From: a virus
Strand: one strand, 5' to 3'
Virus record (IMG/VR): IMGVR_UViG_3300032092_000015
Location: 1 to 64,000 of that record
DNA length: 64,000 nucleotides
A model generated the notes under the pieces. The model was not told the DNA's origin. It worked only from the letters and a program-made list of their open reading frames with translations, and searched no databases. This document shows, one piece after another, positions 6,276 to 51,001 of the stretch. The position numbers and the translations under genes are program-made. The stretch's first letter is position 1; every line of letters begins with the position of its first letter.

Positions 6276-6303
6276 TTTATATGACAGAATGTCGTTTAGT
6301 TTC
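6276..6303 (-). promoter_or_regulatory. GAAAC-N17-TATAAA promoter of gp44
   Basis: On the minus strand TGAAAC (complement of 6299-6304) is followed after exactly 17 bases by TATAAA (6276-6281), 22 bases before the gp44 ATG. The same arrangement precedes gp45, gp32, gp55, the inositol-phosphate synthase and the gene at 36100. Confidence 0.7.
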
Positions 6304-6319
6304 AAAAATAAATAACTAT

Positions 6320-6829
6320 ATGGCATTTCGTAAAAAATATCCAGAAATCGTTCGAACTGGTGGACCGTATCCTTCTAATAGGTTTGGTATCATACTTAAA
6401 AATCTGTCAAGGCTTCAGAGAAGATTCTTAGCCGATCATCCGATTTTAAGAGAAAGGGTACAAGATGATCAGTTTGCTCAAATTATTCTAGAAATTGCAA
6501 ACCATTCAGTACAACCATTTAAGTTTAAAGATCGTATGTATTACGACTGGTCAACTGGAAGTGTTGTAGAGAAAGAAGTCTTATTAGATAATTACAACTC
6601 AATCCCATGGGTATGTGCTGTCAGTGGTAAGCCTATCACTTCTAGAACAGATGATTTTAGCCTAGAAAACTTTGTTCATCCAGAATACCATGACATTTTA
6701 AAGGCTCCAATGGTCGACAGCCGAATTCTTAAATCTTCGGTTGAATTTCGCAAATATGTAAAAAAGCTCCTGTTGAATGAACAACAAGAGCTTCTTAAAT
6801 TAGCTAAGAAAAATTCTAAAGTTAATTAA
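6320..6829 (+). CDS. Plus-strand protein of unknown function
   Basis: The only gene on the plus strand that I accept; no minus-strand frame covers it. 169 residues from ATG 6320. An ATG at 6281 would add 13 residues but would place the gp44 promoter inside this gene, and 6320 has the A-rich leader typical of its neighbours. The protein is basic, with a helical N-terminus (K-K-Y-P-E-I-V-R) and a W-V-C-A-V-S-G-K-P segment near the middle. No family recognised. It diverges from gp44 and its stop overlaps the stop of the convergent gene 6826-8130. Confidence 0.75.
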   Translation: MAFRKKYPEIVRTGGPYPSNRFGIILKNLSRLQRRFLADHPILRERVQDDQFAQIILEIANHSVQPFKFKDRMYYDWSTGSVVEKEVLLDNYNSIPWVCAVSGKPITSRTDDFSLENFVHPEYHDILKAPMVDSRILKSSVEFRKYVKKLLLNEQQELLKLAKKNSKVN

Positions 6830-8130
6830 CTAAGTAATTTTCTAAAGTTATCAGCAATACTATTTCCAGTATATCTTGATTCGTTTAGTTTTAATTGATT
6901 TTCTAATTTACGAAGTTCCATTTCATAAATTCTACCTAATTCAGTTCCTTCTAATTGCCAGCTTTCTTTTGCTGAGATTTTATCAATTGCAGCTTGAATC
7001 TTTTTAATCTTTTCTTCATCACCGGCTTCTTTAGCGCTGTCTAATTGTTTCTTATATCTTTTTAATAAATCTTCTTTAGTATTCTTTTCGGGTTCTCCTT
7101 CTCCTTTAGAAGCTTGAGCATCTTTTAATGCTTGTTGAAATTCACCAACTCTACCCTGTGCAGTTGAAATAGCTTTATCATCTTTTTTCAATTTAGCAAT
7201 TTGTAAATCTATTTGAGCCATGCTTAAATTATTTTGAGCCTCTCCTGCCTTATCTTCTGGAGCAATTTTCTTTGCTTTTAATTCTCCTTTTTTAATATTT
7301 AGCTTTTCGATTTCTGCTTTAGCACCTTCTTCTTCAGCTTTTTTATCAGTTTCTTCTTTAGCTTTTCTATCAGTTTCAGCTTTAGCATCGTTATCTTTCT
7401 TTGCTTGTGCTGCAGCATCTTCTTTAGCTTTTTTATCGGCTTCGGCTTTAGCAGCTTTAGCTTCATCAGATAAATCTTTAATAGCATCTTGCTCTTCAGC
7501 ATATCTTTTCTGTAATTCTCCCATTGATGATGCTAAATCTTTCTTTTTCTTTGGATCGTCTTCCATGCCACTAGATCTTTTAACTAGTTCCATTCTACCT
7601 TTAATCTTTTCAGATTTAATTACTTTCTGAACATAAGATCCTCTATCTTTTGCCTTGTCATCAACAGCCGTTTGTAGATCAGATATTTGACTGTCGATAG
7701 TTTTCTTTTTAGCAAGAATTGCATCTTTTTTAGGCTTGTCTGCGCCAGATCCAAGATTATCAGCAGCAATCTGCATATCTAGAGCATTCATTTTCATTTT
7801 GTTGATTTTCTTTTGCATATTACGATATTTTGGTGCAAAAAGAAAATCTTTAATTTTATCCATTGCTGTTTCTTCTCCAGCTTCATTAAGAACTGAATCG
7901 CCAATAGATTCTAATTCTTCTTTTACTTGTGATGCTAACTGCGATAAGTTAGTCATGATAGTGTCGATATCACTAATAATTTCTTCTCTTGAAAAGTTTC
8001 CAGTTGAAGGAATTGCAGCAGTGTCGACTGTTGGTGCGTCGGTATTATCAGTGGTTGTTGCAACCGGTTCGGGAGTATTAACCGCCTCGAGAATGTTTGA
8101 ATACCAAGAATTGAAGTTTAATTTTTTCAT
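6826..8130 (-). CDS. Putative internal head protein, Ala/Lys-rich coiled coil with capsid-targeting-like N-terminus
   Basis: 434 residues. It starts M-K-K-L-N-F-N-S-W-Y-S-N-I-L-E-A, close to the T4 capsid-targeting form in which gp21 cuts after I/L-x-E. Further candidate cut sites are V-L-N-E-A (about 122), Q-L-E-G and K-L-N-E-S near the C-terminus. A Thr/Pro/Ala-rich linker follows residue 17; residues about 200-330 are a highly charged Ala/Lys/Glu helix. It lies immediately downstream of the major capsid gene with its own late-type promoter, where T4 carries the vertex gene 24, but it does not resemble gp24. A core or scaffold role, or a packaged protein, is inferred. Confidence 0.7.
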   Translation of the reverse strand: MKKLNFNSWYSNILEAVNTPEPVATTTDNTDAPTVDTAAIPSTGNFSREEIISDIDTIMTNLSQLASQVKEELESIGDSVLNEAGEETAMDKIKDFLFAPKYRNMQKKINKMKMNALDMQIAADNLGSGADKPKKDAILAKKKTIDSQISDLQTAVDDKAKDRGSYVQKVIKSEKIKGRMELVKRSSGMEDDPKKKKDLASSMGELQKRYAEEQDAIKDLSDEAKAAKAEADKKAKEDAAAQAKKDNDAKAETDRKAKEETDKKAEEEGAKAEIEKLNIKKGELKAKKIAPEDKAGEAQNNLSMAQIDLQIAKLKKDDKAISTAQGRVGEFQQALKDAQASKGEGEPEKNTKEDLLKRYKKQLDSAKEAGDEEKIKKIQAAIDKISAKESWQLEGTELGRIYEMELRKLENQLKLNESRYTGNSIADNFRKLLS

Positions 8131-8155
8131 TGTTCAATATTTTATTTGACTATGG

Positions 8156-8165
8156 TTTATATATT
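8156..8165 (-). promoter_or_regulatory. Candidate late promoter before the coiled-coil head protein
   Basis: AATATATAAA on the minus strand, 26 bases before the ATG at 8130 and directly downstream of the gp23 terminator, so this gene can be transcribed independently of gp23. Confidence 0.55.
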
Positions 8166-8186
8166 TACATTTCTAGGTAAAAAAGA

Positions 8187-8212
8187 AAAGGCTCTCCAAT
8201 TGGAGAGCCTTT
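8187..8212 (-). terminator. Rho-independent terminator after major capsid gene
   Basis: An 11-base-pair stem (AAAGGCTCTCC / GGAGAGCCTTT, loop AATT) followed on the minus strand by TCTTTTTT. It lies 44 bases after the gp23 stop. Confidence 0.85.
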
Positions 8213-8255
8213 CTTATAAAAATTGTACTATTAAGTATTATACTCTTAAGTAAAA

Positions 8256-9737
8256 TTATGCTAAGTTTAATAGGTTAGCAAATGCAGTACCGTCTGCTTT
8301 AGTAACACTGAACTTAACGTATTGAGTTTCAGGGTGGAAACCAGCTTCAACTAGAGCGAATCTAGATTTAACCGCAATTTTAGGAGCCATAGTTCCTTCA
8401 GCGATAGTTTGTACTGATTCAGCCATTAAGTAAGGCATGAAAACTAATCCAGGACCATTACCATCACCTTTTCTACCTACTAATACGTGATTGTAGTTCC
8501 AAGCCCATTTAGGGTTAGTGTAAACTTGTACACCAGCTACTGAACCTACTGGGTAGATTGCACCTGCAGCTTGAGATACTGTATTAGCAAATGGATTTGG
8601 TACGAAACCAGCAACAGCTTGAAGAACTGTAGCAACTTGAGGACCTACAACTGCAAAGTTACCTGCACCTCTACGACCACGGTTAGCGATCAAGTTAGCA
8701 GCAGCTAAAATACCAGTTAAGATTTTTCTGTGCTCAGAACCTTCAGTTTGACCACCTGTGAAAGATGCAGCTGCAACTAATTTTACGTTTAATGCGCCTG
8801 CAGCGAATTCACCAGCAGCAACCGCTCTAGTTAAGTTAGTAGTACCTAAAGTAGCGATGTTATTGATGATTAAGTCGTTGATGTTTTGAGTTAACTCGTT
8901 AACAAGTACTGCTTCAACTTGAGCAACAGCGTCAACGCCGAATTGCTTAAGATCTTGTACCTGCTCTCTTGTTACTGCAGCAGCAACTTGGAAAGTCTTA
9001 GCTTCAACAGCTTTGCTGAATAAAGATAGACCCATGATTTTTTCGTTAGTTTGCTCACCAACACCTCTTGTGAAAGGATCACCGTTAGCGTCTCCAGAGA
9101 AGCTAGGGATGTGATCTTCTAAAGCTTTTACTAATTCTACAGTTACTGAACCAGAAGTTACAGTAAATAGATCAGCAACAGTTCCAGCAGTTGAAGTTAC
9201 GAAAGCTTCACCAGCGTCATTGATTTTGTAGATGTTTTTACCATCGATACGAGATGTACCAATTAAAACAGCTCCAACTTGAGTACCTTGAGTACCTGAA
9301 TCAATATCAGCTAAAGCAAGACCTGTACCAGATGCTTTAACAATTGTAGGAGTAGTTGTACCAGCTAACTTACCACCTTCGTAAACGAAGTCTAAGTAAG
9401 ATAATAGACCCATAGGACCAGCCATAGGAATAACAGGTACTAAGTCTAAACCGATAGTTTGAGCAGCTACTTGCATTGCTAAAGGTAACAATGTAGGAGC
9501 TTTATCACCAGAACCTTTTGCAACACCATCAACGGCACCAGGAAGTGCAACAGCACCCATACCGAAAATGTTACCTGCAGAACCAAGTGACATCATATTT
9601 GCGTCTTCGTACAACTTGTGGTTGTGGCAGTACTCAGACATCCAAGCTAGTTTAGAAGCATCATTGATACCAGTAGCAGATTCGATGATCGGTGACCATG
9701 TCTCTCTGATTTCAGCTTCATTAATTAAATTTGCCAT
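8256..9737 (-). CDS. gp23: Major capsid protein, gp23-like
   Basis: 493 residues (T4 521). HK97-fold shell protein of the head. Matching segments are T-W-S-P-I-I-E near the start, G-N-F-A-V-V-G-P (about 365), and the C-terminal run H-V-L-V-G-R-K-G, F-M-P-Y-L-M and K-S-R-F-A-L-V, equivalent to T4 V-G-Y-K-G, Y-A-P-Y-V-A and K-T-R-Y-G-I. L-Y-E at 42-44 is a possible prohead protease cut, where T4 removes 65 residues. Codon use is noticeably more even and GC-richer than neighbours, as expected for a very highly expressed gene. Own promoter with an 80-base leader and own terminator. Confidence 0.95.
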   Translation of the reverse strand: MANLINEAEIRETWSPIIESATGINDASKLAWMSEYCHNHKLYEDANMMSLGSAGNIFGMGAVALPGAVDGVAKGSGDKAPTLLPLAMQVAAQTIGLDLVPVIPMAGPMGLLSYLDFVYEGGKLAGTTTPTIVKASGTGLALADIDSGTQGTQVGAVLIGTSRIDGKNIYKINDAGEAFVTSTAGTVADLFTVTSGSVTVELVKALEDHIPSFSGDANGDPFTRGVGEQTNEKIMGLSLFSKAVEAKTFQVAAAVTREQVQDLKQFGVDAVAQVEAVLVNELTQNINDLIINNIATLGTTNLTRAVAAGEFAAGALNVKLVAAASFTGGQTEGSEHRKILTGILAAANLIANRGRRGAGNFAVVGPQVATVLQAVAGFVPNPFANTVSQAAGAIYPVGSVAGVQVYTNPKWAWNYNHVLVGRKGDGNGPGLVFMPYLMAESVQTIAEGTMAPKIAVKSRFALVEAGFHPETQYVKFSVTKADGTAFANLLNLA

Positions 9738-9821
9738 TTTTTAAATGAATTTATTTTTGTGTTTTTAGCGTTATGCTCGACATGCTTAGATTTTTGCTTC
9801 TTATCTAATATCGTCGATTGT

Positions 9822-9831
9822 TTTATATATT
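9822..9831 (-). promoter_or_regulatory. Candidate late promoter of major capsid gene
   Basis: AATATATAAA on the minus strand, 85 bases before the gp23 ATG. The leader is much longer than the roughly 20 bases seen for most other late genes, which may relate to high expression or mRNA stability. Confidence 0.55.
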
Positions 9832-9867
9832 TGTGAATTTTTTCAAATTTTCCAATTTTTCAAAAAA

Positions 9868-11265
9868 TTACTTTTTGAATCTTTTTGCAAATTCTTCTTT
9901 CATACCATCTACGTTGTATGGTAATTTAGAAACTTTTTCTTCAGCTTTAGCAGATTCATTAACTACTTCAATTTTTTCCATTACTGGAGCAGTTTCTCTT
10001 AAATCTCTTGTTTGCCAGAAGTTTCTTACTTGATATTCAGTTTCTAATTTATGATATTTAGACTGGGCAAGTAATTGATTCTTTTTGCTTTCAGATAATT
10101 TATTCCATGTTTCTCTATATTCAGCAGGCATAGCTTTGATTACCATTGGTTCGTTTTCAACTGGAGCTCCAGCTACTGCATTATTCCATAATGCATAGAT
10201 TTGAGATTCAGTTAAGAAACCTTTACCTTCAACAGCTTTGGTAATTTTTGCTTTTGCTTCATCAGTTAAAGCATTGAATTCTTCAACTTTTGATTCAGAA
10301 ATAAATTTAAAGAAGTTTGGAGTTGTTGCAGGTTTTGCAGTTGCTTTTTCAACTAAAATTTGTAATTTCTCAGTGATTGCTTTCTTATAAGCATCCATTC
10401 TATCAACTTCTTCAGTTACTTCTTTACCAATATTTTCGCCTTCTGCTTCAGAATCTTTAATATCTTTTTCTAATTCTTTAGAATCATCTTCAGCTCTGTC
10501 TTCAGCTTTAGCATATTTAGTGCCTTCGCCATCTACAACTGGAGGTGTAGTATCTTTTAATTCTGTAGATTTAAGATCTTCAGCGTGTGTGCCAGTTTCG
10601 CCAGCAGCTTCAGTTACTTCTTTACCAATATTTTCGCCTTCTGCTTCAGAATCTTTAAGATCTTTTTCTAATTCTTTAGCTGTATCTTCGATAGCATCTT
10701 CACCCGTTGGTTGTTTTTTGCCATCAAATTCTACTTTTGGAGTTTTGTCATCAGACATTTTCTTAATTTTTTCAGCAGGTAAACCAGCTTCTTCTCCATC
10801 AGCTTCAACTAATAAGTTTTTATTTACTGATTCAGCAATATATTCAGCATACTCAGTTACTTTTTCTAAACTTTCTTTTAAATAAGTAACATACTTAAGC
10901 ATATTATCATGAGATGTTGCACCTTCGTTAAATGCCTCAGCTAAATAGTTTGAGTATTCTTTTACTTGGTTTACTGATTCACCAATTTTTTCACTGTATT
11001 GAATAGATTGGTCTAATTTTTCAGCAACATGATCTCCGTGTTGAATAGACTCGTCTACTTTTTCAGCTAAATAATTGTTATATTCAATTACTGAATTCAT
11101 TTTTTCAGCTAAGTATGATGAATATTCTTTAAGATTTTCAACTTCTTTAGCAAAAGTACCTTCGTTCTTTTCCTTAAGTGATTCTTTAATACCCTTCATC
11201 TCTTCTGCTAAGTACTTAGAATATTTGTTAAAATCTTCTGTACTTACAAATCTAGATTGTTCCAT
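9868..11265 (-). other. gp22: Possible internal translation start giving scaffold alone
   Basis: Within the protease-scaffold frame an ATG at 11265 (M-E-Q-S-R-F) lies just after the protease domain and is preceded by AGAAGAAAACAAA, one of the few purine-rich leaders here. It would give a 465-residue protein corresponding to a free gp22 scaffold, as in the nested Nu3 scaffold of lambda. Inference; a processed fusion is the alternative. Confidence 0.4.
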
Positions 11266-11856
11266 TTTGTTTTCTTCTATGGTTTGTGTTTGGTTGTCTT
11301 CTATACTATTTATCTCATAAATTAGAATATCGCCTTCATCTTCAAAACCAAAAGCCTCATTTACTCTTTTTAATTCAGCATTAGCAAATCCAGGATCTGC
11401 AACTAAATCGTATGTAAATAATTGTTTGATTTTTACTTTGCCGTCTGATTCAACGACACCAGCTGCTCTAGATGAGATATGAAGAGGTACTCCAGCATCA
11501 ACTAATGCTTTTGCTTGTTTACCAGCATCAGTATCAAGTAGCCTAATTCTACCCATTACTTTTTTGCTTTCTTTGTCATAAGTTAATTCTTCAATAACGT
11601 GTGATACGTTTTTAAGAGAAATATCAAATGCTTGAGGGTGATCAAGTTCACCAAGTAATTTTGATGAACCTATTTTAGCCTGTAGAGCTTCGATTTGAGG
11701 AAGGTATTCGCTTTCAGTATAGATTCTGTTATTTCTATTCTTAACACCAATCTCACCAAAACAGCCTTCTAGTACATAAGCACCAGAATCCTCTTGGTTG
11801 AAGGTCAACGTACTATTTGACCTTTCTAGAATAAGTAGTTTACTTTGTGGAGTCAT
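9868..11856 (-). CDS. gp21: Prohead protease gp21 fused to coiled-coil scaffold
   Basis: 662 residues from ATG 11856 (a GTG at 11868 would add four). Residues about 1-180 are the gp21 protease: V-L-E-G-C-F-G-E, L-L-G-E-L-D-H-P with the catalytic His, I-S-S-R-A-A-G with the catalytic Ser, and D-L-V-A-D-P. Residues about 200-360 are a coiled coil with a repeated Y-S-x-Y-L-A-E unit; residues 380-500 are acidic with a near-exact duplicated segment. T4 carries protease (gp21, 212 residues) and scaffold (gp22, 269) as adjacent separate genes, so this is a natural fusion. Position between core protein and gp23 is exactly the T4 place of 21-22. The C-terminal 160 residues contain F-I-S-E, Y-A-L-W and other helical segments. 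Confidence 0.88.
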   Translation of the reverse strand: MTPQSKLLILERSNSTLTFNQEDSGAYVLEGCFGEIGVKNRNNRIYTESEYLPQIEALQAKIGSSKLLGELDHPQAFDISLKNVSHVIEELTYDKESKKVMGRIRLLDTDAGKQAKALVDAGVPLHISSRAAGVVESDGKVKIKQLFTYDLVADPGFANAELKRVNEAFGFEDEGDILIYEINSIEDNQTQTIEENKMEQSRFVSTEDFNKYSKYLAEEMKGIKESLKEKNEGTFAKEVENLKEYSSYLAEKMNSVIEYNNYLAEKVDESIQHGDHVAEKLDQSIQYSEKIGESVNQVKEYSNYLAEAFNEGATSHDNMLKYVTYLKESLEKVTEYAEYIAESVNKNLLVEADGEEAGLPAEKIKKMSDDKTPKVEFDGKKQPTGEDAIEDTAKELEKDLKDSEAEGENIGKEVTEAAGETGTHAEDLKSTELKDTTPPVVDGEGTKYAKAEDRAEDDSKELEKDIKDSEAEGENIGKEVTEEVDRMDAYKKAITEKLQILVEKATAKPATTPNFFKFISESKVEEFNALTDEAKAKITKAVEGKGFLTESQIYALWNNAVAGAPVENEPMVIKAMPAEYRETWNKLSESKKNQLLAQSKYHKLETEYQVRNFWQTRDLRETAPVMEKIEVVNESAKAEEKVSKLPYNVDGMKEEFAKRFKK
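10411..10679 (-). repeat. 71-bp direct repeat within scaffold
   Basis: 10411-10481 and 10609-10679 are identical except for one base (offset 198). They encode two copies of the acidic segment K-E-L-E-K-D-(I/L)-K-D-S-E-A-E-G-E-N-I-G, in frame. A recent internal duplication. Confidence 0.9.
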
Positions 11857-11876
11857 ATTTATAGACACTATGTTTC

Positions 11877-11886
11877 TTTATATATC
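11877..11886 (-). promoter_or_regulatory. Candidate late promoter of protease-scaffold gene
   Basis: GATATATAAA on the minus strand, 21 bases before the ATG at 11856. Confidence 0.55.
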
Positions 11887-12300: not shown

Positions 12301-13914
12301 TTAGAATCCCATTCCTCCGCCACCGCCCATTGCAGCCATTGGATCTGCTGGTGGTTCTTCGGCTTTTTCAGCATCTTTTCTAGCTTTATACGCTTCGTTA
12401 GCTGCTTTATCGTCTGGGGAAAGTTTTAAGTATCTGTCAACCAAGAATTCTAAGTCAAAGTAATGTTCTTCTTCCATTGTCATTGGGTTAGCAATCATCA
12501 GGTCTTGGTTCATTTTAGAAATAAAGTCTAATCTCTTTTCCATTATTTCCATTTCTTTTAACTCAGCAAACATGTTCTCTTCATTGTATCTCAATGCAAT
12601 TTGAGTTTTGAATCCAGGATCATCAGAAAATTCTGGATATTTTAAACACATTTGTAAGTATAGTGGTTTTACAAGTATTTCTTGGAATGAGCTTCTTAAA
12701 CGATTAATAAATTTAGAGAATTTAATCTCATCACGAATCATACCATCTGCTGCCAAGTTAAAGTCTCCGCCTCCATCTTCATACATAAATCTATTAAATG
12801 GAATTTTAGAAACTTGTTTTAACTTATCAGAGAAATATTTAAGAGCTTCAGTGTCTGATAATTCTGGTCCATCTCCACCTAAAGTTTCAATTTCTGGTTG
12901 TTCACCATCTTTAGAAGGTAACCAATATTCTTTATTAAATTGAAGCATTGGTTTACCATTAGTTTTCAGCATACCTGAATCCCAATCGAAATCAACAACT
13001 TCTTTATAGTTATTCATTAATTGTGCTAACGATTGTTTAGCACGTGTTTTAGATTTACCTCCAACTGGAATAATGAATTTCATTCTATATGAGGCATTGG
13101 TAACAGCCCAAATAACTCTGGTGTGTTCCATAACTCTTAATAAGTTAAAAGCTCTAATTAATCTTTCAACATAAGAAACTCTAGAAGCTGTGGTAATTGA
13201 AGAATAAGAAATATAGATAATCTGCGCATCATATAATTTTCTTTCTTTGATTGGATCGTCTTTAAACTGGATCCAAACTTTTTTACCATCTTCTTTATTA
13301 TATGCTGGAACTAATGTAATAGGATCGATTTCTTTAAAACCGATAATCTCAGATTGTTCAGGGTTATAGATAATTTCAAATGCAAGATAACCATCAACTA
13401 ACCATTTGCGGAAATAGAACCACGCAGATTGATCTTGTGCAAAGCCAAAATATTGATAAATTTGACGGAATGCTTTATTTAGATAATTATTAACTTCCTC
13501 TGAAATCTCCATTCCAATAATTGATGGATTTGCAATAAAGTTTTTCTCATCATAAACAACCGCTTCATCACAAAGAATATCTAAAATATCTTCAATTTCA
13601 TCGTACATTGAGAATTGACGTAATTCATCTCTCTTTGTTTTATAATTCATGTCAAAGAACGGAATGTTCTTTCTCATGTTTGTATCTGCCATTGATAAAG
13701 CTGCAAATGCTCCATAAATGTCGTCATTATCGATACCCATCACATTCATTTGGCCGTAACCAAATTGATCTTCTGCTGGACCAATTGCTTGAGATTGTCG
13801 TAGTACTAAATCATCATAGTACATACCAAAAGAAGATAACCTTTTTAATCCGTCACTTAGATTAAAAGGTCTTCTGGCACTAAAGGGTCCATTTTTATTT
13901 ACAAATCCAGCCAT
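12301..13914 (-). CDS. gp20: Portal protein, gp20-like
   Basis: 537 residues (T4 524). Forms the dodecameric portal at the unique vertex, through which DNA is packaged and to which the neck attaches. Readable T4-like segments are the conserved helix with D-E-I-E-D-I-L-D-I-L-C-D-E-A-V (about 95-112), the stem region with R-V-M-E-H-T-R-V-I-W-A-V, and K-F-I-I-P-V-G-G. The C-terminus ends in a Gly/Met-rich tail (G-G-G-G-G-M-G-F). First gene of a head operon running into the core protein. Confidence 0.92.
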   Translation of the reverse strand: MAGFVNKNGPFSARRPFNLSDGLKRLSSFGMYYDDLVLRQSQAIGPAEDQFGYGQMNVMGIDNDDIYGAFAALSMADTNMRKNIPFFDMNYKTKRDELRQFSMYDEIEDILDILCDEAVVYDEKNFIANPSIIGMEISEEVNNYLNKAFRQIYQYFGFAQDQSAWFYFRKWLVDGYLAFEIIYNPEQSEIIGFKEIDPITLVPAYNKEDGKKVWIQFKDDPIKERKLYDAQIIYISYSSITTASRVSYVERLIRAFNLLRVMEHTRVIWAVTNASYRMKFIIPVGGKSKTRAKQSLAQLMNNYKEVVDFDWDSGMLKTNGKPMLQFNKEYWLPSKDGEQPEIETLGGDGPELSDTEALKYFSDKLKQVSKIPFNRFMYEDGGGDFNLAADGMIRDEIKFSKFINRLRSSFQEILVKPLYLQMCLKYPEFSDDPGFKTQIALRYNEENMFAELKEMEIMEKRLDFISKMNQDLMIANPMTMEEEHYFDLEFLVDRYLKLSPDDKAANEAYKARKDAEKAEEPPADPMAAMGGGGGMGF

Positions 13915-13935: not shown

Positions 13936-13945
13936 TTTATATATT
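13936..13945 (-). promoter_or_regulatory. Candidate late promoter of portal gene
   Basis: AATATATAAA on the minus strand, 22 bases before the portal ATG; it overlaps the last codons of the preceding gene by two bases. Confidence 0.55.
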
Positions 13946-15533: not shown

Positions 15534-15561
15534 ATTATACACCGGGTAGTAAAATTGTTTC
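15534..15561 (-). promoter_or_regulatory. GAAAC-N17-TATAAT promoter of gp55
   Basis: Minus strand AGAAAC, 17 bases, TATAAT, then 22 bases to the GTG start. Just upstream is the terminator at 15571-15596, so gp55, gp4 and the next gene form a separately started unit. Confidence 0.7.
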
Positions 15562-23647: not shown

Positions 23648-24844
23648 TTAAAATAATGATGTTGAATAAATTAAGTTACGATTTAATGTTTGAAGACCGA
23701 TAGAATCTAATACTCGATTTAACGGATCAATCATACTTTTTTCAAATTGCACTTCATAATCGATTGGAGGAGCAATTTCATAAGGATGGTCTCCTGGGAA
23801 ATATGCAAACATTTCACAATTTTTATGGTTACAATGATACAATTTAAGTTTTTCACCGTTACCAATTAACTTATACTTATTCTTGTATTTTTGATTATTG
23901 TTTAGTAAATAATTATAGAATCCAGCAGCTTTTACATTTGGTGGACATTTAGAACCATATTGAAATTCGATATGGTCATCTACAATATATTTCTCAATGT
24001 TATTAGTCCTTTTATTAAAAGAAATATCGTCGATGTCGGCCATTTTAAATTCTTTCTTAGTTTTCTTTAGAAAGTTAACAATTTTTGTTAGTGTTTCTGT
24101 TGTTGGCTTTTCTGTAAAAAGAATTTGTAATGCTTCAGTTAATTTTTTACGAATAAAAGTTGGTGTTGAAGATTGAATCGAATCAAATCCGATAACTTTT
24201 ACCTTTTTCAAAGAAGGATATCGCTCATGTGTTTTTAGCTTATCTTCCCATGCAATATCTTGAATATACTTTTTCTTAGCCATCCAAATTCCTGAATACG
24301 CTATTGATTCAAGTTCAAACTGTAAGAAGCTTTCAGTGTTTTTAGAAGATGCATATTTATCTAATGCTTTAACAATATAATCTCTAATTCGTAAATCATA
24401 AATTGTTAAAATAAAAGTTGCGATGTCCATCTTTTCACCAAGCCATTCAATAGAATCATACATTTCTTCAAATTGAACATAATTTGAATCAGTATCAATA
24501 TAAATTACAGCTTCTTTATAAATATTATTTTTTACTTTAATATTTAATTTCTTATGAACTTCCGTATCTTTAATAAAGAATTCTTGGAAATATTTGTTTA
24601 GAATTTTAGCCGAATATAAAATTGCATTTTGGCCTTGTAGTGTAATAGATTCTGCAATATCGATGTTGAAAAAGTGAAACCACTTGTTACCAAAGGCTCC
24701 ATAGATCGAGTTTAGAGTTACTTTAACTGCTTGTTCATACGCAGTAAACTTGGCCGACTCATTGCTAAAATGAGTGGCCAAGATTTCTAACTCGTTTCTA
24801 GTAAGTTGATCTTCAGGTTTATTTAGTAGTTCCTCAATTGTCAT
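23648..24844 (-). CDS. gp43B: DNA polymerase gp43, C-terminal part (split gene)
   Basis: 398 residues holding the rest of a family-B polymerase whose first part is at 28735-30144. Motif B K-V-T-L-N-S-I-Y-G-A-F-G-N at 41-53, motif C Y-I-D-T-D-S at 115-120 with both catalytic Asp, then a thumb region and S-S-T-P-T-F. It ends Y-S-T-S-L-F, the place of the T4 clamp-binding tail L-D-F-L-F. It lacks exonuclease and motif A, which are in the other gene. The frame is open and clean with its own ATG overlapping the gp45 stop, so this is a true split, not a frameshift. Confidence 0.93.
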   Translation of the reverse strand: MTIEELLNKPEDQLTRNELEILATHFSNESAKFTAYEQAVKVTLNSIYGAFGNKWFHFFNIDIAESITLQGQNAILYSAKILNKYFQEFFIKDTEVHKKLNIKVKNNIYKEAVIYIDTDSNYVQFEEMYDSIEWLGEKMDIATFILTIYDLRIRDYIVKALDKYASSKNTESFLQFELESIAYSGIWMAKKKYIQDIAWEDKLKTHERYPSLKKVKVIGFDSIQSSTPTFIRKKLTEALQILFTEKPTTETLTKIVNFLKKTKKEFKMADIDDISFNKRTNNIEKYIVDDHIEFQYGSKCPPNVKAAGFYNYLLNNNQKYKNKYKLIGNGEKLKLYHCNHKNCEMFAYFPGDHPYEIAPPIDYEVQFEKSMIDPLNRVLDSIGLQTLNRNLIYSTSLF

Positions 24845-25596
24845 TAATCAGCGGTTTGGCAAGTTGCAATAGTTAATAGAGTGGCAGATTCAGTTGAACG
24901 AAGCACTACACGGTTTCCAAATACATAAGCTTTATAATCTTCTTTATCCAAGAGATTTAAGTACTTTTTGTAAACTGTAACACTTCCAGCTTCACCTTCA
25001 TAATCAACACTTACTAATTTGTTGTATGATTTACCGCTCATTTTAACACCGCCATCGCCAGCTGTAATTGTGAACGTTTCATCTTTATCAAGATTGAACA
25101 ATGATTTAATACGTCCTGCTTCTACATTGCTTAATTCGAATACAAAATCAGAACCTTCTACATTAAAGATAGATTGTAATTGAGCATCTGTAAGGTCTTT
25201 GTAACCCAATGATGGCTCTGAACAAGATAAGGTAATTTCCAAATCTTCATTAAAGATTTTAAAGCTAGATGCTACTAAATCTTCTTCATTTTCAACAAAT
25301 TCAATTTCGCCTTGAATTGTTTGGTAGTCGAATTGTTTGAAAGCTTCAATTAATTTAGAAGCATCAAAAAATGCAACTTTCATTTCTTTTTCTGGCGTAG
25401 CCTCTGTGATTGTGAAAATTTCACTTGCTGGAAATGCGTTATGTTTAACAGCATCTCTCTGCGGAAGATACGCGGAAGATACAACCTGGAGGTTATCTCC
25501 TTTAATTTTGAAATAGATGAACGAATCAATCAATTTCAACCTGTTTACAAAACCAATAAAATTGGCTTGATCTACTTTGTCAATTTTTAATTTCAT
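24844..25596 (-). CDS. gp45: Sliding clamp gp45
   Basis: 250 residues (T4 228). Trimeric processivity clamp, also the late-transcription activator. The start M-K-L-K-I-D-K, the regular alternation of strands and helices, the central F-T-I-T-A-G-D-G-G-V-K-M-S-G (T4 I-A-I-T-V-K-E-G-K-I-V-I-N-G) and D-Y-E-G support the call. Located next to polymerase, as clamp genes are. Own GAAAC-N17-TATAAT promoter 36 bases upstream. Confidence 0.85.
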   Translation of the reverse strand: MKLKIDKVDQANFIGFVNRLKLIDSFIYFKIKGDNLQVVSSAYLPQRDAVKHNAFPASEIFTITEATPEKEMKVAFFDASKLIEAFKQFDYQTIQGEIEFVENEEDLVASSFKIFNEDLEITLSCSEPSLGYKDLTDAQLQSIFNVEGSDFVFELSNVEAGRIKSLFNLDKDETFTITAGDGGVKMSGKSYNKLVSVDYEGEAGSVTVYKKYLNLLDKEDYKAYVFGNRVVLRSTESATLLTIATCQTAD

Positions 25597-25631: not shown

Positions 25632-25661
25632 ATTATATTCATAATGTACCTTTTGTTTCAC
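25632..25661 (-). promoter_or_regulatory. GTGAAAC-N17-TATAAT promoter of gp45
   Basis: Minus strand GTGAAAC (complement of 25655-25661), 17 bases, TATAAT (25632-25637), then 35 bases to the gp45 ATG. It lies directly beyond the nrdA terminator. Confidence 0.72.
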
Positions 25662-27599: not shown

Positions 27600-28616
27600 T
27601 TATGAAAACATGTCATCCGCGTCCCAATTCTCATCTTCTCCTGCCTTTGAGTAGTCAGTTGGTCGAATTGCAAAAAAGTCAGTGTGTGTATGTCCTCCAG
27701 TTAAGTGATAGAACCAATCTAATTGACTAGCCATTGCTTCACTATAATGGAAAATGCTTTCATATCCTAATTCATTAAGTTTTTCGTTTGCCCTTTTCTT
27801 AATAAATTCTTTAAGGTCTGCTGCTTGCATGTTTTCAAGGTCTCCCATTTCAAACATTTTATCAATGAATTGGAATTCCATTTCAACCATTAATTTTGCA
27901 GCTTCTTCTACTTGAGATTGAACTGCACCTTTTAGTTCAGGATATTCTTCGCACATGTGTCGAAATAACTGACAACCCATTTTTGAGTGTAATGATTCAT
28001 CTCTAACTGACCATTTCATTTGCTGACCAATACCTTTAAGTAGGTTGCGCATCTGGAATGAATATAAAACTGCAAATGATGAATATAGTGAAACGCCTTC
28101 AGCAAAAGCAGAGAAGATCGCAAGTGATCTGGCTACTTCCTTTCTAGCAGAAGAATCGTGTTGTAAATCTAAATGATTATAATCATTACTAGTTTCTAAT
28201 AAGAATTCAAACTTTTGAGAAATTGATGGTTCTTTAAGAAATGCAGCAAAATCTTCTAATCCTAAAGTTTCATTTAAATATGAGTAAGCAACAGCATGCA
28301 CTGTTTCATTCGAACCAAAAGCCATCGCCATTTGTCTAATCTCATGTTTTGGAAACCATTTAGTAACCATGCCAGTCCAATAATCTGAAACTGCACATTC
28401 GGTTTGTGCAAATCCTAATAATATATTACCAACAAGATTCTTTTCAGATGGTGTTAAGTTTTCATTCCAATCTTTAAGATCGCCTTGCATTGAAATTTCA
28501 GTATGTAACCAATGAGCTTGCATTACTGGAAGCCATCCTTCAGTATAGTACATTGGATATTCAAAGGGTTTATACTCTACGCGTTCAACAAATAATGATG
28601 ATTTTGAATTTTCCAT
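27600..28616 (-). CDS. nrdB: Ribonucleotide reductase small subunit NrdB
   Basis: 338 residues. Di-iron/tyrosyl-radical partner of NrdA. Ligand motifs visible: E-C-A-V-S-D-Y (about 112), N-E-T-V-H-A-V-A-Y-S-Y (about 140), E-G-V-S-L-Y-S-S-F (about 193) and R-D-E-S-L-H (about 225). Acidic C-terminus D-D-M-F-S can bind NrdA. Sits between polymerase halves, upstream of nrdA. Confidence 0.95.
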   Translation of the reverse strand: MENSKSSLFVERVEYKPFEYPMYYTEGWLPVMQAHWLHTEISMQGDLKDWNENLTPSEKNLVGNILLGFAQTECAVSDYWTGMVTKWFPKHEIRQMAMAFGSNETVHAVAYSYLNETLGLEDFAAFLKEPSISQKFEFLLETSNDYNHLDLQHDSSARKEVARSLAIFSAFAEGVSLYSSFAVLYSFQMRNLLKGIGQQMKWSVRDESLHSKMGCQLFRHMCEEYPELKGAVQSQVEEAAKLMVEMEFQFIDKMFEMGDLENMQAADLKEFIKKRANEKLNELGYESIFHYSEAMASQLDWFYHLTGGHTHTDFFAIRPTDYSKAGEDENWDADDMFS

Positions 28617-28694: not shown

Positions 28695-28704
28695 TTTATA
28701 TATT
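28695..28704 (-). promoter_or_regulatory. Candidate promoter before nrdB
   Basis: AATATATAAA on the minus strand, 79 bases before the nrdB ATG. Identical to the motif before virion genes, although nrdB would not be expected to be late-only. Confidence 0.4.
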
Positions 28705-33229: not shown

Positions 33230-34408
33230 TTAAGCCTTAACCTGTTTCTCTGTAACTTTAGTAAGTTTACGATTTGCTAAAGCTTCGCATTCTTGAACAG
33301 CGTCAACAAACATCATTTGTTGAGGTGGTGTCTTTTGAGTAAATGCAGATGGTCCACGAAGAGCACCAACAATTCCCATTTCTCTTGCAACTCTAACATA
33401 ACGTAGAGCGTCAATTACAACTCCTGCGGAGTTTGGACTATCTTGTACAGATAGTTGAGCATCAAAAATAACCGGTGCTCCACCAAATCCTTCAAGTTCT
33501 AAACGGAAGTTTGCAACTTTATTATCTCCATAGTAAGAGATATATTCAGAAGGACCAGCATGTAAGAATGAACCTTCGGTTGAGATTCCACGAATATCAT
33601 TCTGAGCACGAATTACATTCTCTTTAGAAATCTTTTTAGATTTCAAACGAGATTTATCTTCCATATTTAAGAAGTCAGTATTACCACCAACATTACGTTG
33701 AATATGTGCTCTTACTACGTGGCCTCTTTCGAATGCAAGTTCTTGTAACATTTGAGACAAGATAGATGCACCAAATTGAGAACGCATATCATCACCAATC
33801 AATGGAATTCCTGCGTCGATAAAACGTTTCTCCCATGCTGGATCAGATGCAATAAATACTGGAATACAGTTAACAAAAGAGATTCCAGTTTCTAGACAAA
33901 TTTCTGCCCAAAATTCTGTTGCTGCTTGAGAACCTACTGGTAAGTAGTTAATCAATACCTCAACTTCATGTTCTTTTAATTGAGAGATGATTTTGTCTTT
34001 CCACTGTCTGTCTTTTTTATCAGTCCATTCAGTACGATTAGTTTCAGTTGAATTTCTCAACTCTTCAGAAACCAAGAAACGATTTGTTTCTGGATATGCA
34101 TCCATTAACAATGCGTAACCATCAATAACTGGTGCTTCATATACTGGAGCAGTAGAATCGATAGTTGGAACAATGTCCCATGCAGAGTTTGGACGCTGCT
34201 TCAATGCAACACCTAATGGTTGATTTACTTTACGTTCATCAATATCAAAAGCACAAACGAATTCAATATCTTTTGCACCATATCCACCGATGTCGCTACG
34301 CATCATACCGTCGATGTTTGCTTCATTTTCGGTGTAGAATTGTACTCCTTCTACTAGAGACTTGGCACAATTTCCTGTACCAATAATTGCAACTTTAATT
34401 TTACTCAT
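33230..34408 (-). CDS. ino1: Inositol-3-phosphate synthase (MIPS)
   Basis: 392 residues, the length of short bacterial and archaeal MIPS. Converts glucose-6-phosphate to myo-inositol-3-phosphate using NAD. N-terminal Rossmann I-G-T-G-N-C-A-K-S; C-terminal half with G-G-N-T-D-F-L-N-M, K-S-K-K-I-S-K, P-S-E-Y-I-S-Y-Y-G-D and Q-D-S-P-N-S-A-G-V-V-I-D-A, all MIPS hallmarks. Its own GAAAC-N17-TATAAC promoter and its own terminator make it a single-gene unit. Unusual in a phage; may feed glycan, lipid or DNA modification. Confidence 0.9.
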   Translation of the reverse strand: MSKIKVAIIGTGNCAKSLVEGVQFYTENEANIDGMMRSDIGGYGAKDIEFVCAFDIDERKVNQPLGVALKQRPNSAWDIVPTIDSTAPVYEAPVIDGYALLMDAYPETNRFLVSEELRNSTETNRTEWTDKKDRQWKDKIISQLKEHEVEVLINYLPVGSQAATEFWAEICLETGISFVNCIPVFIASDPAWEKRFIDAGIPLIGDDMRSQFGASILSQMLQELAFERGHVVRAHIQRNVGGNTDFLNMEDKSRLKSKKISKENVIRAQNDIRGISTEGSFLHAGPSEYISYYGDNKVANFRLELEGFGGAPVIFDAQLSVQDSPNSAGVVIDALRYVRVAREMGIVGALRGPSAFTQKTPPQQMMFVDAVQECEALANRKLTKVTEKQVKA

Positions 34409-34430: not shown

Positions 34431-34458
34431 GTTATACTTATAATTTATAAAAGGTTTC
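34431..34458 (-). promoter_or_regulatory. GAAAC-N17-TATAAC promoter of inositol-phosphate synthase
   Basis: Minus strand TGAAAC, 17 bases, TATAAC, 23 bases before the ATG. The TGAAAC overlaps the end of the SGNH-like gene by two bases. Confidence 0.68.
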
Positions 34459-35506: not shown

Positions 35507-35847
35507 TTTAAAAGCTTTTTAATAAGAGATGGTAAATATGTAAATGAAATAATAATGCCAAAACTAAACATTATTACGGCTAACTCTTTGGTCTGAGCAT
35601 TAAATTGTTCATGTGACATCCATAGAGTGTTTGCTGTTAACCAACAAAGTATTGATATATTTTCCATCTTTTCGAAAAATCTATCACTCCATTTAATTAA
35701 TAGAACCGAGATTATGATTGTTGGAATTGCAAGTGTTAAACTTAAAACACCAAATCCCATCATCCACGCTAAATCTTTAAGAATCCACATTGGAAAATGG
35801 ATCACTTCTAAAACGTCTTTACTTCTTTGTTCCTTCGTTCTTTTCAT
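35503..35847 (-). CDS. Small membrane protein
   Basis: 114 residues with two or three predicted membrane helices: about 25-52 (G-F-G-V-L-S-L-T-L-A-I-P-T-I-I-I), a weaker one at 62-76, and 88-108. Positively charged N- and C-termini. Overlaps the SGNH gene by four bases and the upstream gene by 29. No family recognised; membrane-active accessory or superinfection roles are possible. Confidence 0.7.
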   Translation of the reverse strand: MKRTKEQRSKDVLEVIHFPMWILKDLAWMMGFGVLSLTLAIPTIIISVLLIKWSDRFFEKMENISILCWLTANTLWMSHEQFNAQTKELAVIMFSFGIIISFTYLPSLIKKLLK

Positions 35848-36100
35848 TAATATAATTTTCTAAACCTTGAATATACGCAACTGCATCAAGCAAATTATCT
35901 CGTTTGTGATTATAACTTTCACGCGAGAATTTAAGCGCTACTAGCGCCATAAACATTTCACGACCCGTAACATTAAGTCCGGTCATACCATTAAAAATCA
36001 TTGCTGCTCGATCCATGCCTTCTGAAAATGGACCATATTGGCGATCTGCTTCTTCTGAACGATTGTTGACAATCTTGTCTGCTTCTTCTAAAATACTCAT
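35819..36100 (-). CDS. DUF6378-like conserved phage protein
   Basis: 93 residues. R-Q-Y-G-P-F-S-E, then M-A-L-V-A-L-K-F-S-R and R-D-N-L-L-D-A-V-A-Y-I follow the conserved pattern Q-Y-G-x-x-x-E ... L-K-x-x-R ... K-x-D-N-x-x-D-x-x-G-Y of a small helical family common in phages and of unknown function. Preceded by a GAAAC-N17-TATAAG promoter 17 bases upstream, so it heads the unit containing the membrane protein and SGNH protein. Confidence 0.75.
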   Translation of the reverse strand: MSILEEADKIVNNRSEEADRQYGPFSEGMDRAAMIFNGMTGLNVTGREMFMALVALKFSRESYNHKRDNLLDAVAYIQGLENYINEKNEGTKK

Positions 36101-36116: not shown

Positions 36117-36144
36117 CTTATATCTAAAACTACAAAAAAGTTTC
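36117..36144 (-). promoter_or_regulatory. GAAAC-N17-TATAAG promoter
   Basis: Minus strand CGAAAC, 17 bases, TATAAG, 17 bases before the ATG at 36100. Same geometry as the gp44, gp45, gp55 and ino1 promoters. Confidence 0.66.
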
Positions 36145-46681: not shown

Positions 46682-46704
46682 CATTTGAATTTACTAAAGT
46701 TTAC

Positions 46705-48213: not shown

Positions 48214-48230
48214 AACTCATCTTTGTATTT

Positions 48231-48665
48231 TTAAAGTTGCTTCATATCAATTCGATTCTTAATTGCAAATCCAATATTATCAAGCGTTTTAACAGAATTT
48301 GTAAAGAAATCTTTTTGATTCTCTAACAATTCTAGTATTTGATAGTCCTCAGATAAATCAGCCTCAATAAATCTTACGCGCTGTCCATCTGAAAGTTTAT
48401 AATCATAGTTGTAATAACCAATCCAAGCGGTCTTATATTCTCTATCTAGTTTTGCTTTTTGTGCTCTAATCTTAGAGCTAATAGATGCCATCATATCAAC
48501 TAAAATTTGTCGATAGCTAAGAGTATATGAAGATGTTTCGGGAAGATTAACTCCAGCCTTTAATTCATCTGCAACTTCTCTGATTTTCTTAGTCCATTCA
48601 GCTCTTTGAGCTGCTAAATACTCATCTAGTTGCTGTATTTTATTTGGTTTAGTTTCAACTTCCAT
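48231..48665 (-). CDS. uvsY: Recombination mediator UvsY
   Basis: 144 residues (T4 137). Loads UvsX onto gp32-coated DNA. The C-terminal segment L-L-E-N-Q-K-D-F-F, L-D-N-I-G-F-A-I-K-N-R-I-D-M matches T4 L-L-D-F-C-S-G-A-L-D-A-I-K-S-R-G-F-A-I-K-H-I-Q-D-M; the middle has the K-L-D-R/K-A-R-L basic helix. Located between uvsW and primase, close to UvsW as in T4. Confidence 0.83.
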   Translation of the reverse strand: MEVETKPNKIQQLDEYLAAQRAEWTKKIREVADELKAGVNLPETSSYTLSYRQILVDMMASISSKIRAQKAKLDREYKTAWIGYYNYDYKLSDGQRVRFIEADLSEDYQILELLENQKDFFTNSVKTLDNIGFAIKNRIDMKQL

Positions 48666-48676
48666 TATTAATTATT

Positions 48677-48907
48677 TTAAAATAAGCTATTGCTGTTTTT
48701 ATCGGGTTTTATATAAATACTAGTTTTCACCTTTTGTTTAAATTTAGGTTTAATTTCAGTACTTATTTTAGTTCCTTCATATTCATATTTTGATGCCTCA
48801 AAATCAACAAGAGTTTTTAAACCCTTAAACTGATCTTTTTGTCTTTCAAAATCTTCAAATTCGTTATCGATCATTTCGATAAAGCTATTTTTATAGATAG
48901 TATGCAT
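48677..48907 (-). CDS. Small acidic/basic protein with Leu-Phe tail
   Basis: 76 residues. N-terminal acidic helix (I-E-M-I-D-N-E-F-E-D-F-E), basic middle (K-P-K-F-K-Q-K-V-K) and C-terminus S-N-S-L-F. Overlaps primase by 17 bases. The tail resembles clamp-binding peptides on polymerase and RNase H in this genome, so it may attach to gp45; function unknown. Confidence 0.7.
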   Translation of the reverse strand: MHTIYKNSFIEMIDNEFEDFERQKDQFKGLKTLVDFEASKYEYEGTKISTEIKPKFKQKVKTSIYIKPDKNSNSLF

Positions 48908-49970
48908 CTAACATCGAGTTACTAAAGTAATTGTTTATTTTAGAGAGACAGTCACTTTTGTTTCGATATGCAGCAATTACTAAATCATTTAAATCTTTTA
49001 TTTCTTCATTATATGTATTCATTTTAGTTTCTTTAAGAAATTTGGTCCACAAGAAGATTGATTTACCAGCTTTTAGCTTTTCAAGCATCTTTGTTTTACC
49101 AGCTTTATCATTATCAAACATATAACGAATTGTTGGAACCTCATCAAGTTCCGTTGTATCGCGTCCTACCGAAGAAAGAGCAATTGAATTACTCATAAAC
49201 ATTCGGTCAAGTGGACCTTCAAAAATAGTTACGGGTCGAGTAAAATCAGTTTGCGTGATTCCAAATAAGGTTGATATTTTACTAATGGCAATCTTTTCTT
49301 CTGGAGTAACTTCAATTGGTCGCTCCATCCATTCTAAGATTTTATCAAGATCGTATGTTAGGTATTTTGAATTGCTTGTTTTAACAAGAGCTCTTGATTG
49401 CATACCAATTACCTTATTTCCTGGAGCCAAATTTAAAACATAGATACGTTTATCTCTTGGGGAAAAAAGGAAGTTTTCTAATTTGTTTGATAGTAACCTT
49501 TTTCTAAGATAGAGCCAAGGAGCATCGCCGACATCGATTTTAACCATCTTTAACGTAGAACATAATTCATCTACGGTTGGAGCCAACTGAAACATTTTTT
49601 CAAACATTCCATATTGCAAAACTTCAACATGATTTGTTTCGCTCTTATTCTCTTTGATCCATTCAATAACCTGAATTGAATCTTCAGTGTTGTCGAATCT
49701 TATTTCATGGTCCTTTAAGAAACTATATACGTCAGAATGCTCTCCACAGTTGAAGCAATGATACTGTAGAGTGTCCCAGTAGATATTACCACGTTTCTTT
49801 TTATCGTCAGAATGCGAATCACCACAATAAGGACATGCCAGAGTTATTCGCCCTGGCATTTCCTTTATCATGGTCTTGTTTAAGTTTGCGTGCTCTTTTT
49901 GTAGAACTTTCTTAACTAAGACTTTGATTTTTAACTTTAATTCTTCTGATATTTTAGAGGTCGAGGTCAT
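48891..49970 (-). CDS. gp61: DNA primase gp61
   Basis: 359 residues (T4 342). Makes RNA primers with gp41. N-terminal zinc ribbon C-P-Y-C (about 47-50) and C-F-N-C (about 72-75), then the toprim core with I-F-E-G-P-L-D near 241 and D-N-D-K-A-G near 276. Overlaps gp32 by 17 bases and the next gene by 17. Confidence 0.92.
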   Translation of the reverse strand: MTSTSKISEELKLKIKVLVKKVLQKEHANLNKTMIKEMPGRITLACPYCGDSHSDDKKKRGNIYWDTLQYHCFNCGEHSDVYSFLKDHEIRFDNTEDSIQVIEWIKENKSETNHVEVLQYGMFEKMFQLAPTVDELCSTLKMVKIDVGDAPWLYLRKRLLSNKLENFLFSPRDKRIYVLNLAPGNKVIGMQSRALVKTSNSKYLTYDLDKILEWMERPIEVTPEEKIAISKISTLFGITQTDFTRPVTIFEGPLDRMFMSNSIALSSVGRDTTELDEVPTIRYMFDNDKAGKTKMLEKLKAGKSIFLWTKFLKETKMNTYNEEIKDLNDLVIAAYRNKSDCLSKINNYFSNSMLDAYYL

Positions 49971-50892
49971 TCAAGAACGAATCTAAATCATCAGAACTAT
50001 CTACTGAACTTGATTCAACTGGAGCAGCTTCAGCTTTTTTCGGAGCTGGAGATGTTGGAGTATCGAAATCGAAATCGTTTGATTCTTCAACTTTTGGAGC
50101 TGCTTTAGCTTTTGGTTTTGATACAATCTCATCCATTGCAGAACCTGGGTTCAAATATTGGCGAAGAATGCTGTTCACGAAATCGCGAGTTTCTTCATCC
50201 CATGCTTTGTACTCATAAGGTTCCAATGATGGAGCTGCATCTAATTCAGTTTTGATTTTGGTCATGAACTCTTGGGTCTTTTCTGCAGTTTCACCATCAA
50301 CAACAACTGCTGATTTGCTTGCTGAGAATTTCGACTTATCATAGTTGTTATAATCTCCTTGACGAGTAATAATCAGCTCAAAGTTCTTACCATTAAATAG
50401 ATCGAAAATTTGTGTAGGTTCACCGAATGCAGGTTTCAATTCTTCATCGATTTTCTCTTTGATTTTGTAACCAAACTTGAAAATCTTGTATTGTCCTTCG
50501 AATTCAGGATGCTGAGGATCTTTGATAATTTTTACCAAAGCATAATACTGTTCGCGTCTTTTTAATTTATCAGCGATCTTGCGATCTACAGCTGATTCAG
50601 ACTTACGAAGTTTAAAGAATGCATCTGCAATTGGGCACTTTTCTCCAACTGAAGAAGGAGAGTCAATAAGTTTACCTTCACCGGCTGCATCTGTCAACCA
50701 ATGTACGTACTTTTTAACTAGTGAGTTGCGGGGATTCTTTGGATTAGGAACAAATCGGATTAGAGCTTTGTAAGTTCCGTCTTTACCTTCATCAGCGGTA
50801 GGTTTGTAAATGTCATTTGTTGATGAAGAGCTCTGTGTTTCATGAGTATCGACTGCGTCAACGCTCAGATTAAAAATGTCAAATTCTGCCAT
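49954..50892 (-). CDS. gp32: Single-stranded DNA-binding protein gp32
   Basis: 312 residues (T4 301). OB-fold ssDNA-binding protein central to replication and recombination. T4-like: Y-K-A-L-I-R-F-V-P-N (T4 Q-A-V-I-R-F-L-P-S), Y-A-L-V-K-I-I-K-D-P-Q-H-P-E-F-E-G, F-K-F-G-Y-K-I, N-Y-D-K-S-K-F, and an acidic C-terminus D-L-D-S-F-L-N-D-L-D-L that recruits partners. T4 gp32 holds zinc with three Cys and one His; here only one Cys (G-E-K-C-P-I) remains, so the zinc site is lost. Strongly regulated leader upstream. Confidence 0.93.
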   Translation of the reverse strand: MAEFDIFNLSVDAVDTHETQSSSSTNDIYKPTADEGKDGTYKALIRFVPNPKNPRNSLVKKYVHWLTDAAGEGKLIDSPSSVGEKCPIADAFFKLRKSESAVDRKIADKLKRREQYYALVKIIKDPQHPEFEGQYKIFKFGYKIKEKIDEELKPAFGEPTQIFDLFNGKNFELIITRQGDYNNYDKSKFSASKSAVVVDGETAEKTQEFMTKIKTELDAAPSLEPYEYKAWDEETRDFVNSILRQYLNPGSAMDEIVSKPKAKAAPKVEESNDFDFDTPTSPAPKKAEAAPVESSSVDSSDDLDSFLNDLDL

Positions 50893-50971
50893 GTCTTTAA
50901 TACTTTAATTTTCTTTAAATTTGTTAATACGTTAAAATCTTTAGGTACCTTAAATCTTTAAAACGATAATG

Positions 50972-51001
50972 TTTATATAGTGTAATTTGATAATGTTTCA
51001 C
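50972..51001 (-). promoter_or_regulatory. GTGAAAC-N17-TATAAA promoter of gp32
   Basis: Minus strand GTGAAAC (complement of 50995-51001), 17 bases, TATAAA (50972-50977), 80 bases before the gp32 ATG. A second possible start, GATATATAG, is at 51031-51039. Confidence 0.7.

Follow-up and report, generated by a model that had tools for sequence, protein, structure and literature searches.

GAAAC-N17-TATAA as a candidate middle promoter class of a lineage of large T4-like phages, probably read by a phage ECF sigma factor

The 64,000-nucleotide stretch analysed here (positions 1 to 64,000 of IMG/VR record IMGVR_UViG_3300032092_000015; hereafter the window) comes from a large uncultured T4-like virus that probably infects Bacteroidota, and it carries the motif GAAAC-N17-TATAA shortly before six genes. 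We think it likely that this motif is the middle promoter class of a lineage of large T4-like phages that probably infect Bacteroidota and that it is read as a −35 and −10 pair by a phage sigma factor of about 200 residues belonging to the extracytoplasmic function (ECF) type. From sequence we infer that such a sigma serves this class in the window's phage, working with the host core polymerase at middle times. The window holds six exact matches to the motif. They all lie on the minus strand, which is the coding strand; shuffled versions of the window gave a mean of 0.47 and at most 2, with none of 100 shuffles reaching six. All six sites listed by a first-pass annotation are therefore real, its coordinates being off by one or two bases at most, and its range of 17–80 nt before start codons agrees with the measured distances: 22 nt for gp44 (with the start taken as the ATG at 6254, not the longer open reading frame (ORF) start at 6326), 22 for gp55, 36 for gp45, 23 for ino1, 17 for the DUF6378 gene and 80 for gp32. 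Its labels for gp44, gp55, gp32 and ino1 are backed by phrog or Pfam family matches (Table 1); gp45 is without a family match, and its model, of modest confidence (pLDDT 63.9), resembles PCNA-type sliding clamps (8.5e-10). A scan of the whole 95,302-base virus record, as the annotation had proposed, found eight sites on the coding strand and one, inside a gene, on the opposite strand; the reversed pattern gave 0 and 0 on the two strands. The two further coding-strand sites precede a dCMP deaminase gene and a phrog_1811 gene.

The motif is conserved in position while its surroundings change. Among the best 80 of 220 relatives kept from a gp44 search, the exact motif stands close upstream of gp44 in 77, with divergent sequence in the 17-base spacer. 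The three exceptions have a spacing of 18 (L074) or TAAAC-N17-TATAA (L072), both judged by eye, or end about 38 bases upstream (L087). One-sidedness by strand was seen in 21 of 21 relative records, several of them near-identical. Group counts were made over seven group genomes or fragments, dominant versus other strand. GAAAC-N17-TATAA occurred at 97 versus 6 sites and GAAAC-N18-TATAA at 29 versus 6, with 2–11 dominant-strand sites at each other spacing within 10–24. TAAAC-N17-TATAA (54 versus 2) was the only common single-base variant, the remaining ones having 0–19 sites each. The exact 17-base spacing that had been claimed is thus dominant, with 18 as a genuine minority form, and TAAAC also occurs. 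Intergenic sequence, 8.3% of the total, holds 64 of the 97 dominant-strand N17 sites, and 80 of the 97 lie no more than 60 nt before the ATG of an ORF of 40 or more codons, compared with 9,509 of 28,000 random positions. Enrichment before starts is borne out by these counts, and the sites are not equally frequent within genes or on the other strand. Two of the six opposite-strand sites themselves precede an opposite-strand ORF of 378–379 codons (G015 118452, G012 3930).

In an unbiased dyad ranking GAAAC-N17-TATAA came seventh (49 upstream, 22 elsewhere), with AAACA-N16-TATAA fourth and AACAA-N15-TATAA eighth. T-run dyads outranked it; some of these derive from the early promoter class described below, and some probably stem from terminators. 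TATAA is frequent in the AT-rich upstream regions, so that chance matches might be suspected; yet shuffles of eight genomes, including that of phage PAU, gave means of 0.35–1.46 against 7–23 observed, most other spacings lie near background, and the motif is conserved before gp44. The spacing, strand and conservation tests refute a chance origin, which we consider next to impossible.

Three predicted promoter classes were distinguished, of which GAAAC-N17-TATAA would be the middle one, between an early class TTATATTTAC and a late class [GA]ATATATA[AG]. The early class, found by dyad counting and inspection, has an upstream T-run and occurs at 88 dominant-strand sites (78 intergenic) and 12 on the other strand. 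Its box resembles the Bacteroidota sigma-A element TAnnTTTG and in this respect looks host-like. The late class, noticed on inspection of upstream regions, precedes capsid genes, with 209 dominant-strand sites (158 intergenic) and 17 on the other. The T4 late sequence TATAAATA is not enriched in the same seven genomes (99 versus 103), and the late class takes the [GA]ATATATA[AG] form rather than TATAAATA despite the encoded gp55-like sigma. Of the two timings first suggested for the motif, early or middle, the middle assignment stands and the early one does not, since a separate host-like early class and a late class coexist with it. The view that it is neither of the Bacteroidota sigma-A type nor of the MotA type is upheld by the separate early class and by the failure to detect MotA or AsiA.

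Within the group each gene keeps its class of promoter. With G, T or A accepted as the first base and a spacing of 17 or 18, the middle box precedes gp44 in 7/7 records where the gene was found, gp55 in 6/6, the DUF6378 gene in 6/6, gp32 in 5/5, ino1 in 4/4, the dCMP deaminase gene in 4/4, the phrog_1811 gene in 2/2 and gp45 in 4/6. It was found before the helicase gene in only 2/6 group records and before SbcC in only 3/6. The major head protein, portal and protease genes have a late box in 6/6 records each, and the exonuclease gene (4011-5234 in the window) has an early box in 7/7. At gp32, middle and late boxes stand in tandem in four of five records. The DNA polymerase gene had no box of any of the three classes in 6/6 group records.

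Six-frame searches of group records with an ECF model revealed a candidate reader. Besides gp55, a full ECF sigma of about 200 residues scored over the cut-off in six of nine records and then in eight of ten further group records; the five records that lack it are all of 71–145 kb. ECF and gp55 were the only sigma matches in the window's group. The phage sigma scores 59.2–69.5 bits against the ECF superfamily model TIGR02937 (cut-off 42.9) and is covered end to end by the sigma-2 and sigma-4 ECF models and by SigW, although at 74 bits it falls far under the SigW family cut-off of 209. It comprises regions 2 and 4 only, joined by a linker of about 50 residues (judged by eye), which fits the ECF layout. 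Its candidate target GAAAC contains AAC, which would agree with the ECF −35 hallmark if this sigma reads the box. Among the best 80 of 114 relatives kept from an ECF alignment search, an early-type box lies upstream of the ECF gene at 66 loci by a strict pattern, most of the others having close variants such as GTATATT; the middle box was found upstream of the gene at none of the 80. Counted by distinct upstream sequence, the figures are 36/49 for the early box and 0/49 for the middle box. Over 1.36 Mb around these loci, a redundant set, the motif occurs 255 versus 0 times by strand at spacing 17 and 71 versus 0 at spacing 18, other spacings having 0–18 each.

The residues of the sigma that would contact the −35 box are consistent with GAAAC as its target. 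The best solved match of the phage ECF profile is Bacillus subtilis SigW, in whose crystal structure T-36, G-35, A-34, A-33, A-32 and C-31 are read by T168, K170, T171, R172 and R175 (PMC6713349). The recognition helix LQT[IV]KNRI[RHL]RG[KR] is present in 80/80 phage ECFs and places T, K, N, R and R at the SigW contact positions, four of the five being identical. A homologue in LR756500, adjoining the same phosphoesterase gene as in the window's group, keeps the SigW-type contact residues; its genome counts 17 motif sites on the coding strand and 6 others. In the Lak-B5 homologue (aligned by eye), Y and K replace the two contact arginines; GAAAC-N17-TATAA occurs at just 2 and 0 sites in the Lak genomes (Lak-B5, MK250024; Lak-C1, MK250029). 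AGACA-N17-TATAA, by contrast, has 24 and 28 sites there, its reversed pattern 8 and 12. This control is imperfect, as it differs in composition, and a spacing test was therefore added for Lak-B5 only, in which spacing 17 accounts for 24 of the 79 AGACA matches over spacings 10–24. The AGACA-N17-TATAA box precedes Lak gp44 and also stands directly before the ECF-like sigma gene in Lak-B5 (14 nt) and Lak-C1. In PTm1, S-SM2 and Melnitz no sigma exceeds the ECF cut-off and the motif is not in excess. Sigmas of LR756504 and LR756501 do pass this cut-off, and there too the motif is not clearly enriched (6 and 8 sites; control, 11 and 7).

Several observations weigh against reading by the ECF sigma. 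First, the window's own record, of 95 kb, is one of the five that lack the gene. In the relative G015 it lies in a conserved cluster with a phosphoesterase gene, two genes of unknown function and a guanylate-kinase-like gene; no match to these neighbours was found in the window's record or in G002, so truncation is a sufficient explanation for the missing gene. A contig whose gp44 is 93% identical to the window's (IMGVR_UViG_3300027242_000010; loci L013 and L294) has both the motif before gp44 and the ECF gene. The first-pass suggestion that an activator, or a sigma of phage or ECF type, may be required thus found a candidate in large relatives, not in the window's record itself, and its reading of the motif is a matter of inference. 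Second, CGT in the −10 element and autoregulation are described as ECF hallmarks, though not all ECFs are autoregulated (PMC8103513); here the −10 is TATAA rather than CGT, and the ECF gene, with no middle box upstream at any of the 80 loci, is not autoregulated. Third, the LR756500 orthologues of gp44, gp55 and gp32 are without the box, and LR745206 has an ECF homologue (35%), which has lost both helix arginines, yet no GAAAC site in its genome. The correlation between helix and box rests on few independent lineages. Last, phage PAU (JQ362498) has the motif, and no homologue of the phage ECF was found in it.

In PAU, whose host has been placed in Sphingobacterium (PMC3738902), the motif occurs at 23 forward and 0 reverse sites, 21 of the 23 within 80 nt of a start. 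Spacing 23 has nine matches as well, since at nine sites another GAAAC precedes the first by six bases, and GTTTCGTAG is shared by several sites just before TATAA; the doubled GAAAC and GTTTCGTAG suggest an extra bound factor. The full sigma of PAU is a 362-residue sigma70-like protein, distinct from the phage ECF. Either this sigma may have reached the same −35 element on its own, or a different factor may bind GAAAC.

In one alternative, a phage activator with the role of MotA would bind GAAAC and bring host sigma-A polymerase to a TATAA −10. The presence of the motif in PAU without the phage ECF, and the nine sites with a second GAAAC, like repeated activator sites, speak for it. MotA and AsiA models, however, which detected the T4 control, gave no credible match in six group records (two of 234–236 kb) or in PAU, divergent forms being possible. 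The TATAA −10 is unlike the host-like early TTATATTTAC, whereas in T4 the middle promoters retain the −10 element of the host (PMC2988021). The position of GAAAC is that of a canonical −35 element, and there is scarcely any tolerance of single-base variants in either half. We regard an activator as unlikely. Two weak MotCF matches (E 0.024) were considered as activator candidates and rejected, as they span nine stop codons. It is less probable still that other phage sigmas, such as the 362-residue protein of PAU, or more than one sigma, read the same box in some members, with GAAAC a convergent −35: PAU and LR756500 do encode other full sigmas, but the window's group has none beyond ECF and gp55.

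A host alternative sigma, whose class the phage merely borrows, would account for the likeness of GAAAC to bacterial ECF −35 boxes, and the nearest named family of the phage sigma is indeed a Bacteroidota ECF subfamily, with a score below the family cut-off. Against this, one 3.9-Mb genome of Gramella (Flavobacteriaceae) was at background, with 16 and 20 sites against 14 and 13 in the control (36 against 27 in total), and a host promoter class was rejected on this one genome. Borrowing would also leave the phage's own conserved early ECF gene unexplained, and we hold it to be very improbable. A bacterial parent of the phage ECF was likewise sought by a genome-contig scan; the two Gramella loci it returned, at 24–27% identity and with no GAAAC promoter before them (by eye), were rejected as such.

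With the phage ECF as the preferred reader, transcription would proceed in three steps. Host RNA polymerase with host sigma-A would transcribe the early genes, including the ECF gene, from TTATATTTAC-type promoters. The ECF sigma would then bind the host core polymerase, its region 4 reading GAAAC and its region 2 reading TATAA 17, sometimes 18, bp downstream, and would switch on replication genes, nucleotide genes and the gp55 gene. Last, gp55 would drive the late [GA]ATATATA[AG] promoters before capsid genes, a role assigned by analogy with T4. If an early ECF sigma reads the middle class and turns on the gp55 gene, it would therefore take the place of T4 MotA and AsiA, and this lineage may have replaced the T4 middle-gene switch by a different device.

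The scheme shares its outline with T4, whose middle genes are replication, nucleotide-metabolism and late-switch genes (PMC2988021): a middle class likewise stands before replication and nucleotide genes and the gp55 gene, and a late class would depend on gp55, as it does in T4 (PMC6024815). A gp55-like sigma is encoded in the window and in relatives, as in T4, although the late box is not TATAAATA. The T4 MotA box lies 12 ± 1 bp from the −10, whereas GAAAC lies 17–18 bp from TATAA, and in place of a detectable MotA or AsiA the relatives have an ECF sigma. In the SPO1 cascade, gp28 is the middle sigma and gp33/gp34 act late; the likeness would be an early gene making a sigma for middle promoters, which switches on the next sigma, and the difference that the middle sigma here would be an ECF, the late step of the T4 gp55 type and the genome T4-like. 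With B. subtilis SigW (PMC6713349) the phage system shares the −35 T-G-A-A-A-C as well as four of the five contact residues, and differs in its TATAA −10, in a score far below the SigW cut-off and in not being autoregulated. The Lak megaphages of Prevotella likewise have a distant ECF homologue and, before gp44, a −35 box at a distance of 17 bp from TATAA, but the box is AGACA, the recognition helix is altered and the promoter also precedes the sigma gene itself. The 'Moraphages' are large aquatic phages with predicted Bacteroidota hosts, related to Lak and with a sigma factor in the core genome (PMC12619734), and the one 'promoter' passage found in the available part of that paper concerns a homing endonuclease. 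For jumbo phages, RpoD-like and minimal sigmas have been reported, with no occurrence of 'ECF' in the accessible portion of the source (PMC7824862). Sigma cascades of phages and programmes of the T4 type are each established; their combination was not found in the literature searched, nor was any paper that pairs a phage ECF sigma with a class of middle promoters.

ECF sigmas are characteristically co-transcribed with an anti-sigma factor; what follows the phage ECF gene is a conserved gene of some 70 codons with no assigned function (in G015, L101:10508-10720; also at other loci). For the predicted structure of its product (pLDDT 82.7), the first three Foldseek and first four VIA matches are chains of 60–69 residues from Firmicutes RNA polymerase structures, which we take to be the epsilon subunit, the tables leaving the chain unnamed. 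These matches are weak (E 0.02–0.18, Z 3.4–4.0) and may reflect just a common arrangement; the protein had nothing worth naming in Pfam and no sequence match in the PDB. Lying beside a sigma gene, it is a weak candidate for a polymerase-binding protein. The fuller proposal, in which MotA and AsiA were replaced by a relay from the ECF sigma, with this epsilon-like small partner, through gp55 to ATATATA late promoters, and in which the same sigma family shifted to AGACA in Lak together with its helix, seems to us evenly balanced between right and wrong. If the sigma and promoter pairing is true, temporal gene classes could be predicted from sequence for many uncultured phages, the pair would be a candidate tool for orthogonal expression in Bacteroidota, and homologous sigmas that differ in their −35 box (GAAAC, AGACA) would form a natural series for the ECF −35 specificity code.

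Table 1 Predicted promoters of the three classes and the genes with a middle promoter in the window
Feature	Position	Strand	Remarks
Early-type box TTATATTTA, 21 nt before exonuclease gene (4011-5234)	5256..5264	-	
gp44 clamp loader, middle gene	5304..6254	-	phrog_168 9.9e-75
Middle promoter GAAAC-N17-TATAA before gp44	6277..6303	-	exact match; conserved in relatives
Late box AATATATAA before major head protein gene (8256-9737)	9823..9831	-	
Late box GATATATAA before head protease gene (9868-11868)	11878..11886	-	
Late box AATATATAA before portal gene (12301-13914)	13937..13945	-	
gp55-like late sigma factor, 130 aa	15120..15512	-	phrog_234 1.2e-11
Middle promoter before gp55 (GTG start 15512)	15535..15561	-	middle box in 6/6 group genomes
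gp45 sliding clamp	24844..25596	-	predicted fold
Middle promoter before gp45	25633..25659	-	exact match
Late box AATATATAA before NrdB gene (27600-28616)	28696..28704	-	
ino1, inositol-1-phosphate synthase-like	33230..34408	-	PF01658 3.1e-22
Middle promoter before ino1	34432..34458	-	exact match
DUF6378 gene	35819..36100	-	PF19905 9.3e-10
Middle promoter before DUF6378 gene	36118..36144	-	exact match
gp32 single-strand DNA binding protein	49954..50892	-	phrog_224, PF08804
Middle promoter before gp32	50973..50999	-	exact match
Late box GATATATAG, tandem with gp32 middle promoter, 138 nt before start	51031..51039	-	

Some smaller features were noted around individual promoters. A possible divergent gene (window 6281-6829, plus strand) has a start region overlapping the sequence immediately ahead of the gp44 promoter, and GCCAT (ATGGC on the plus strand) recurs just upstream of that promoter in many relatives. 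The dCMP deaminase middle promoter, at 93412-93438 of the window's virus record and outside the window, overlaps a terminator-like hairpin that a T run follows. In G015, the 236-kb contig has a gp44 call near each end (1096-2046 and 235070-236020), which suggests that the ends overlap and that the complete genome is of about 234 kb.

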